Below, in pieces: positions 304 to 33,540 of a stretch of 64,000 nucleotides of DNA (within the stretch, counting starts at the first letter, position 1; each line of letters begins with the position of its first letter). A program made the translations under genes and the position numbers. A model generated the notes under the pieces. That model had not been told where the DNA came from, searched no databases, and saw only the letters and a list, made by a program, of their open reading frames with translations. The stretch is from a virus. Location of the stretch: positions 33,562-97,561 of the IMG/VR virus record IMGVR_UViG_3300012003_000002, one strand, 5' to 3'.

Positions 304-976
304 TAGCGTCATTAATATTATCTTCAGGAAGTTTTAAAGTTCCTATAAGAGTTTGTATAATCTCAGAACGAATTGCATCAATGTGATGAGCTTGTAATGG
401 ATATTCTGTTTCATCTTCATCAAAACAAGGTTTAGAATCTTCACAATTACAACAATTTTTATAATTTTGTAATTCTAAAGGATCTTCAAATATACCTGTA
501 ACTGTAATACAATCAATTAATTTAACTGTTTCAGATTTACTTATTAAATAGATTTTTTTATCTGTATCTAAAAAAGCATAGATTGAATTTGCAAAAGGTG
601 AGTACTGACTCCAAACAGCTCGTTCTTTATTAACAAAGTTAAATGGTTTAGTTATTTTAACAGAAGGTTTAACTTCTGTTATAGCTGATTTAAGATGTAA
701 TTCTAATGGAATGGGAATAGTATTCTTAGAACGCATTATAGTATCGCAATCGTAGTCTAAACCACATTCATTAACAGATACTTCTTCCATATCCATACAG
801 AATTTCTGTAATATTGAAGTATCTATTAATTTTTGTAAATTATTTGCGTCATTACGCAGATATTTACTACGTTTTAAATTATATAGATATATAATATATC
901 TATTGGAAAACTTCTGATCGTCTACAGTATCTCTAATAGCTGTTCTGACATCGTAAATTAATTTGGAAATTACCAT
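296..976 (-). CDS. Connector or tail structural protein of the crAss-like type
   Basis: This 226-residue protein begins MVISKLIYDVRTAIRD and carries a Cys-rich segment near residue 190 (NCCNCEDSKPCF) followed by YPLQAHHIDAIRSEI. Its size, the helical N terminus and the DYPLQ-like C-terminal helix resemble a conserved crAss-like virion protein that I recall from the neck/tail region. It lies directly downstream (leftward) of the phosphoesterase cassette and overlaps the next gene. Membership of the structural module is well supported by position. The exact ring or tail role is an inference. Confidence 0.5.
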   Translation of the reverse strand: MVISKLIYDVRTAIRDTVDDQKFSNRYIIYLYNLKRSKYLRNDANNLQKLIDTSILQKFCMDMEEVSVNECGLDYDCDTIMRSKNTIPIPLELHLKSAITEVKPSVKITKPFNFVNKERAVWSQYSPFANSIYAFLDTDKKIYLISKSETVKLIDCITVTGIFEDPLELQNYKNCCNCEDSKPCFDEDETEYPLQAHHIDAIRSEIIQTLIGTLKLPEDNINDAND

Positions 977-29448: not shown

Positions 29449-29479
29449 CAAAGGTAATCAATTAAAATGACATATGCAA
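29449..29479 (-). promoter_or_regulatory. Bacteroidota-type promoter for the leftward operon
   Basis: On the minus strand TTG, 20 bases, TACCTTTG, about 25 bases upstream of the ATG at 29425. This is a full match to the -33/-7 consensus and would start the small-gene, chaperonin and packaging transcript. Confidence 0.5.
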
Positions 29480-29541
29480 GCTTTTTATCATTTATTTTAC
29501 AAAAATATGTAAAATAATTTATTTAAATGACAATTAGACAT

Positions 29542-29573
29542 AAAAAAACCCTTCTCAATTAAGAGAAAGGTTT
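29542..29573 (-). terminator. Terminator of the leftward noncoding RNA
   Basis: The leftward RNA folds GAGAAGGGTTT with AAACCTTTCTC around a 6-base loop (one mismatch) and continues into seven U. It lies upstream of the operon promoter at 29449-29479 and ends the 29.6-29.9 kb transcript, insulating the two units. Confidence 0.5.
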
Positions 29574-29885
29574 ATATATAAGTTACCCATAACCATAATA
29601 TTGTAATTTACAAATAATTAGTTAATAATTAGTTAATAATTAAACACAAAAGGGTTTCCCAAGAAATCTAATTCTTAGGAACCACTTGGCTTATATAGTT
29701 TGTTGAAGTCGTCATACCCTTAAACCCGTTATCTATTCACATATCTTCTTTTGCCCTAGATTGTATATTAAATATACTGTGAAATAGCAACAACCACCTA
29801 TATAAGTTGCGTAATTATGTCTTGTTATTAAATTGTCTAATATTAATTCTGTTTAAAACTGTCTAAATTAATTATCTTTTTAATA
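29546..29885 (-). ncRNA. Independently transcribed structured noncoding RNA, about 340 nt
   Basis: This stretch has a promoter (29892-29923), a terminator (29542-29573) and no open frame of note. Between them lie nested complementary arms: 29690-29698 with 29798-29806 (CTTATATAG type, 9 pairs), 29700-29705 with 29788-29793 (6 pairs), and 29733-29741 with 29778-29787 (9 pairs with one bulge). A separate hairpin pairs 29656-29665 with 29672-29681 (10 pairs, 6-base loop). The start is estimated as about 7 bases after the -7 element. It matches no RNA class I know, such as 6S or RNase P. Confidence 0.5.
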
Positions 29886-29891
29886 ACAGTA

Positions 29892-29923
29892 CAAAGATAC
29901 AACATTTATTTGTAAATTCCTAA
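29892..29923 (-). promoter_or_regulatory. Promoter of the leftward noncoding RNA
   Basis: On the minus strand TTAGG, exactly 19 bases, TATCTTTG. The N19 segment is also similar to that of the phosphoesterase promoter (both contain TTTACAAA and TGTT at the same offsets), suggesting a shared regulator or common origin. Confidence 0.5.
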
Positions 29924-33178: not shown

Positions 33179-33540
33179 GGGGTCGACTGGTTTTGACAGG
33201 TAGATAATAAATATATAATTCAGCCAGAGAGATAACTGTAAACTAAGGTGAATATTTTTTAAACGGCAAAAATCAACAAACAGCCAATATGGCTAAAGTT
33301 TTTTCTCTAATCAATTCTGATATAACTGAATTTGAATTAGCAGCATAGTTTAAAACGGTCAGTAAGTTAATTCGCGATGTGCATTAATCCTGAACCAAAC
33401 TCAAACTATAGAGTAATTTAGTATTGGTCCACATTTAGTAGTTTTTAAAGGACAATAAAGATTAAATTCTACAATAAGCTGTATAAAATTATATATTAAA
33501 AACTATTTTGGACCCGAGTTCGATTCTCGGCGACTCCACA
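33179..33540 (+). ncRNA. ssrA: tmRNA (transfer-messenger RNA)
   Basis: The 5' end GGGGTCG-ACTGGTTTTGACAGG is the tmRNA signature. The 3' end has a T arm CCGAG-TTCGATT-CTCGG and CGACTCC, which pairs with GGGGTCG over seven pairs including G3-U70, the alanine identity pair; the discriminator is A and only CA of the CCA is encoded. The tag frame probably resumes at GGC 33265-33267 and runs 27 codons to TAG 33346-33348, starting GKNQQTAN and ending TEFELAA, so the LAA degradation signal is kept while the tag is long. tmRNA rescues stalled ribosomes with host SmpB. Confidence 0.5.

Follow-up and report, generated by a model that had tools for sequence, protein, structure and literature searches.

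A small structured RNA, here called class A, lies in the divergent region of a crAss-like phage genome between a promoter and a terminator of its own. Its layout is conserved among related phages, it is noncoding, its helices and a pseudoknot covary, and in other phages of the group the same place has been taken by exchange with different cassettes. Probably, this is an independently transcribed pseudoknotted RNA of a new family that acts in trans by its shape, i.e., an “RNA moron”.

The window, meaning the whole stretch of 64,000 nucleotides that was analysed, corresponds to bases 33562–97561 of a virus record of 97,561 bases. It was assigned to a crAss-like phage because its major head protein (61% identity), portal (54% identity), terminase, GroEL, DNA polymerase, helicase and primase match those of the Cellulophaga phage phi14:2, which belongs to the Steigviridae within the Crassvirales. 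At the DNA level, comparison with GenBank phages returned low-complexity or chance matches only. The RNA sits between a leftward block of structural genes and a rightward block of replication genes. The window also contains a phage-encoded tmRNA at 33179–33539 (tag GKNQQTANMAKVFSLINSDITEFELAA), separate from the class A RNA, and tmRNA matches over the cut-off were obtained in 6 of the 20 records searched.

The first-pass annotation of this region had described a stand-alone noncoding RNA unit with a consensus promoter, about 340 geneless bases, a hairpin/U-run terminator and a second promoter insulating it from the operon behind. All of these elements were recovered on closer analysis, with the promoter exactly as claimed, and the unit is organized as follows:

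29892–29923, minus strand: promoter, TTAGG (29923–29919), 19 nt and TATCTTTG (29899–29892), by its sequence of the Bacteroidetes vegetative type.
29811–29887, minus strand: 5′ leader of the transcript, which would start at about 29887–29885.
29637–29810, minus strand: conserved pseudoknotted core of class A (135.7 bits with covariance model R1; 31 contigs; covariation).
29574–29636, minus strand: variable 3′ tail with a UAUGG-GUAA-CUUAUA tetraloop hairpin, from inspection of the tails.
29541–29573, minus strand: intrinsic terminator from terminator scans, an 11-pair hairpin (29573–29546) and a T run.
29449–29479, minus strand: separate promoter of the downstream leftward operon, recognized by its sequence, which insulates the RNA unit.

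The TTAGG-N19-TATCTTTG promoter is of the host type, going by Bacteroidetes promoters in general. Between promoter and terminator the minus strand has no ORF reaching 40 aa, and a small protein gene was rejected as well, in that an invariant AUG opens frames of 7–97 codons with unrelated ends; in L105 this AUG is missing, with GGTACGAC replacing GGTATGAC. Two terminator-like sites, that of the RNA included, were found in 2.5 kb, where shuffled sequences gave 0.1, and a stricter scan of the whole window returned only two leftward terminators, the RNA’s again among them. With so few others in the window, the terminator at 29573–29546 appears to serve the RNA. The leader is about 60 nt longer in the window, the promoter-to-core distance being 81 nt as against 14–20 nt in most relatives. 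The extra nucleotides are capable of hairpin formation and absent in relatives, and 29887–29811 as a whole is mostly window-specific. This 5′ part of about 80 nt, the pseudoknot and the exchange slot all go beyond what the first-pass annotation had described.

The layout was counted over 22 distinct complete class A cores. A -7 box of the TAnnTTTG type stands upstream of the core in 21 of them (L026 has one mismatch), at a distance of 14–20 nt in 19, of 81 nt in the window and of 102 nt in L022, where a tRNA sits between promoter and RNA. A terminator hairpin with a U run, its stem sequence differing among members, follows 19 of the 22 cores, and a further -7 box past the terminator follows 18. 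L029 and L068 have no terminator and L065 only a weak one, and in all three an ORF comes soon after the RNA, which suggests that the RNA there is part of an mRNA leader or is processed from the mRNA; L065 and L068 are the most divergent members of class A. In nearly all members a conserved motif (GCTATTAG/GCTATAGG) lies a few dozen nt upstream of the -33 element, in the window at about 29966–29955, and an A-rich block (AAAATAATTGCAAAAA) occurs at most promoters of the clade; motif or block is perhaps an activator site. At the other end of the unit, an element (AAGTAGTCTGRACAGTCTRAAAAAGACAGGGCTAAATTGCAATTACTTT) precedes the terminator in L035, L081 and L117 and is common to class A and class B units (see below), which suggests that tails were exchanged separately from cores.

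These counts bear on the idea that the RNA is a cis-acting leader of the leftward operon, either a riboswitch-like attenuator or a put-like polymerase modifier causing readthrough of the terminator at 29548. The RNA always heads the leftward block, a constant position that would also fit a cis role, and in L065, L068 and L029, which lack a good terminator, operon ORFs follow it directly and it may be carried in the mRNA leader, which counts against a free RNA. However, a separate promoter past the terminator is present in 18 of the 22 members, and the window has almost no other leftward terminators to overcome. Moreover, core and terminator stem do not overlap and are a variable distance apart, and the core stays constant while the genes downstream change. 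We therefore consider a cis leader unlikely, and the narrower candidate of a riboswitch or attenuator acting on a promoterless gene was rejected on the separate promoter, with L029, L065 and L068 as the exceptions. An independently transcribed RNA is the reading followed below.

The core has a strand order of P1–P2 5′, hairpin, pseudoknot 5′, P2–P1 3′, hairpin and pseudoknot 3′, made up of these elements:

29798–29806, minus strand: P1 5′ strand CUUAUAUAG, pairing with 29698–29690; double changes at 4 pairs.
29788–29794, minus strand: P2/P2b 5′ strand (GUUG + UUG), with partners 29705–29702 and 29711–29709, from the covariation count.
29733–29787, minus strand: variable P3 hairpin domain with outer arms 29787–29778 and 29741–29733 and an inner hairpin 29777–29763.
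29716–29721, minus strand: pseudoknot 5′ strand AAGGGU (relatives GCGAGGU and variants), from covariation.
29702–29711, minus strand: P2/P2b 3′ strand (CGA, bulge CUU, CAAC), from the covariation count.
29690–29698, minus strand: P1 3′ strand CUAUAUAAG, from the covariation count.
29656–29681, minus strand: P4 hairpin of 10 pairs between the P1 3′ and pseudoknot 3′ strands, variable in sequence among relatives.
29650–29655, minus strand: pseudoknot 3′ strand ACCCUU (relatives ACCUCGC and variants), from covariation.

The nested arms that had been noted in the window sequence alone reappear here as the 9-pair helix 29806–29798/29698–29690, the arm just inside it and 29787–29778/29741–29733, beside the separate 10-pair hairpin 29681–29656, and P1 and P2 covary among 19 distinct relatives. 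Poorly conserved arms in relatives, which by the first-pass annotation would have spoken against the RNA, were thus looked for and not observed. The covariation count covered these 19 distinct sequences and the helices P1, P2, P2b and the pseudoknot. Overall, 96% of cells were paired and 68 were doubly changed, compared with 27 in shuffles, which leave relatedness unremoved, and 0–5 with slid partners, a control that retains it. Double changes occurred at ten pairs, including three in P2 (29794–29791/29705–29702; types AU, GC, UA, CG) and three in the pseudoknot (types CG/AU/GC, GC/AU and AU/GC). The latter, of 6–7 bp (29721–29716/29655–29650), is paired in 98–99% of cells; P2b (29790–29788/29711–29709) is 100% paired, with one-sided changes only. 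A second alignment made via the neighbour gene, which comprises largely the same phages and was fitted to the model, gave 69 doubly changed cells and the same outcome. The P3 arms are present in members by inspection and differ in sequence and length. The comparison argues strongly that P1, P2 and the pseudoknot have been preserved by evolution in class A. Taken by itself, the window sequence has a fold energy modestly below that of shuffles (z -2.5), so that the comparison with relatives is decisive rather than single-sequence folding.

Alignment with relatives contains a block of near identity (GGTATGACNACTTC...CCAAG...GGAAACC). Around the pseudoknot core the conserved unpaired residues form clusters, which fits an RNA that depends on its shape, and the loops, outer hairpins and tail vary. 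That the pseudoknot core is conserved and the outer hairpins and tail are variable points to a shape which a protein recognizes. The same pattern speaks against a trans-acting small RNA that regulates phage or host messages by base pairing, since conservation lies in the pseudoknot core and its junctions and there is no long unpaired seed. Such an RNA would otherwise agree with a free-standing unit that has its own promoter and terminator and is single-copy in the genomes searched, yet it seems to us quite unlikely. The protein-recognized shape is the version of trans action that we prefer.

Pattern scans and the covariance model together found class A in 31 phage contigs including the window. 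The first pattern returned 26 contigs, and L065, L068, L081 and L105 were added later. A relaxed pattern added eight sites, six of which were due to chance, and a control pattern with a different gap length gave only unrelated sites, all below 10 bits. None of 84,980 bacterial and archaeal genomes (species) contained the first core pattern in this exact-pattern test, which could miss distant copies. Model R1 was negative in phi14:2 and in the examined stretch of crAss001, and loci found through a 109-aa protease alone (L005–L009) have a different context without the class A RNA. In all members with flanks available the syntenic position is identical, at the head of the leftward block. One class A contig, L015, also carries a Hatchet ribozyme (824–974, minus strand; 75 bits) about 1.2 kb from the RNA.

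All 4227 families of Rfam release 15 were compared with the class A RNA, with each family’s gathering threshold as the criterion, and there was no relevant match; the best one below threshold was to the Na+ riboswitch, with 17 of 40.5 bits and over the P4 hairpin only. Scans in E-value mode (E up to 5–10) left classes A, B and C matchless, and the early impression that the RNA falls outside known classes was borne out even at E up to 10. Among individual candidates, tmRNA was rejected for want of a match of the class A RNA to the tmRNA model, the 6S model gave no match to it either, and a Y RNA of a TROVE RNP was discarded because the TROVE protein occurs in 0 of 19 records searched. The reviews and genome surveys searched, mainly open access, describe no structured RNA of this kind in crAss-like phages. 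As judged from sequence comparison, class A would be a new RNA family, its novelty lying in the family together with the exchange slot.

The slot was surveyed at 42 loci found via a 90-aa gene at the head of the leftward operon. Class A occupies 25 of them; 13 of the other 17 have a different cassette in the same place, and four are cut off or unclear. Each of the 13 holds one of three unrelated RNA-like cassettes (B, C or D), two kinds of which come with a small protein gene, and as no locus has two classes, the classes are mutually exclusive. Their positions are:

L089 3957–4250, L091 3680–3965 and L097 3607–3895: class B RNA, with covarying helices and a short possible pseudoknot.
L099 3646–3935, L116 2438–2722 and L117 3584–3870: class B RNA, with covarying helices and a short possible pseudoknot.
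L088 204–560: class B RNA, with covarying helices and a short possible pseudoknot, without the T5orf172/MUG113-like gene behind it.
L012 6990–7330 (minus strand) and L101 2840–3165: class C RNA, without a match in Rfam.
L107 4267–4420 and L110 3197–3350: class D, a short element after the same type of promoter (AGAGGARGGKTACCTTT).
phi14:2 about 97,395–97,535 (L134 1395–1535): possible class D copy in this cultured phage, likewise after this type of promoter, in an orientation opposite to its neighbours.

Class B was found at eight loci, with about 310–355 nt to the next ORF or tail, and a pattern scan returned the same eight contigs only. It has 17 doubly changed cells versus 5 in shuffles and 0–2 with slid partners. 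At seven of the eight loci, L088 being the exception, it is followed by a T5orf172/MUG113-like gene (GIY-YIG superfamily), an assignment tested against Pfam for two of the seven genes. The class C elements of two phages with diverged flanks (L012/L085 and L101) are about 85% alike, and a homologous 72–73-aa ORF lies behind them; class D is present at L107, L108 and L110. The structures proposed for classes C and D come from few sequences, and that of class D is weak.

How cleanly the cassettes change places can be seen from L090 (class A) versus L091 (class B), which share 93.6% identity as far as the promoter and 98.8% from the terminator onwards but are unrelated in between. On a tree of the 90-aa gene there are at least 10 class changes (minimum 3), close to the mean of 12.1 in shuffles, a count that is approximate, as the tree has 88 columns and several open forks, and one set of identical proteins includes both class A and class B. 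Lineage thus hardly predicts which class is present, and repeated cassette exchange in the slot is clear from these comparisons. We suggest tentatively that at least three, possibly four, unrelated structured RNAs swap in this slot and could be diversifying effectors against host defence or competing phages. With similar reserve, the slot may be pictured as a constant promoter and a constant terminator flanking the swapped RNAs, some of which bring a partner protein gene.

The exchange also bears on two further explanations. The RNA could be a primer or regulator of a replication origin in the divergent region, as the cumulative GC skew has its minimum at 30–32 kb, adjoining the RNA. The skew switch coincides, however, with the switch in gene direction, and a primer that replication requires would hardly be exchanged for unrelated RNAs in one and the same position, which makes an origin RNA highly improbable. 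A ribozyme or a domesticated intron-like element, with a GIY-YIG-superfamily ORF retained in class B, might explain the cassette-like movement and the T5orf172/MUG113 protein gene behind the class B RNA, and the strands of class A come in the same order as those of the group I core (P3-P4/6-P7-P3′-P8-P7′). Yet this H-type order of crossing P3/P7 helices is generic and insufficient for membership, a group I P7 sequence was not recognized by eye, and no Rfam intron or ribozyme model matched even at E up to 10. The group I intron was rejected by name, its covariance model being without a match at that limit in the window and three relatives. A self-splicing context was rejected too, as no gene is split or interrupted and the RNA has a promoter of its own on one side and a terminator on the other. 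A ribozyme or intron-like element is accordingly very unlikely, and the interchangeable, free RNA remains our preferred reading.

Transcription in crAss-like phages is divided between the virion polymerase, for early genes, and the host polymerase, for late genes (PMC10136315). Given this division and the host-type promoter, the host RNA polymerase probably transcribes the RNA from the Bacteroidetes-type promoter and stops at the RNA’s own terminator; both this terminator and the independent promoter that follows speak for a free RNA. In the predicted fold, P1/P2 would enclose a hairpin and the 5′ strand of the pseudoknot, whose partner strand lies beyond the second hairpin. Once released, the RNA would most likely act in trans, its fold being bound by a host protein or by one from a competing element; host RNA polymerase, ribosomes or messages had been put forward as possible targets in the first-pass annotation. 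As an RNA moron it would be an accessory promoter–RNA–terminator unit in a fixed slot that holds other RNA cassettes in related phages. The interchangeability of the RNAs suggests an accessory function under changing selection, which may be host takeover, counter-defence or the exclusion of competitors.

Such a unit is of wider interest in view of the abundance of crAss-like phages, which rank among the most numerous viruses known. Class A offers a concrete new test object, as it covaries clearly, has transcription signals of its own and lacks Rfam relatives, and through the possible class D copy in phi14:2 the slot would become accessible to tests in a phage that is in culture. Should unrelated RNAs truly take each other’s place in a single slot, changing RNA effectors may serve phages in the way that protein morons do.

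The morons of lambdoid phages are promoter–gene–terminator inserts. The class A unit resembles them in having its own promoter and terminator, in its variable presence among close relatives and in swapping cleanly between these. In contrast to the known morons, which encode proteins, it specifies a structured RNA, and the alternatives in the slot all begin with an apparent structured RNA as well. Like class A, the put RNA of phage HK022 is structured and located immediately behind a phage promoter, with a terminator further downstream. Class A differs from put in the separate promoter after the terminator and in the few other leftward terminators, and a second copy of the class A RNA on the rightward side was not found. 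With the group I catalytic core (RF00028) class A shares the strand order of two crossing helices, unlike it in lacking a sequence match and an exon context and in having its own promoter and terminator. TROVE/Ro60 proteins bind Y RNAs, and in crAss001 a TROVE gene is found among the early genes (PMC8375218). Class A is, like the Y RNAs, a small structured RNA, here in a crAss-like phage; unlike in Y RNA systems, no counterpart of the TROVE (Ro60) protein of crAss001 occurs in the 19 records searched. Directly downstream of the TROVE gene of crAss001 lie about 900 nt without annotated genes (95,965–96,869; L133 25966–26870), a stretch that could hide noncoding RNAs. GOLLD and ROOL are phage-associated structured RNAs of unknown function that were found by comparative genomics (PMC12286853). 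They are much larger than the class A core of about 150–175 nt, which has no Rfam match, and class A joins them as a phage-linked structured noncoding RNA gene recognized by comparison.
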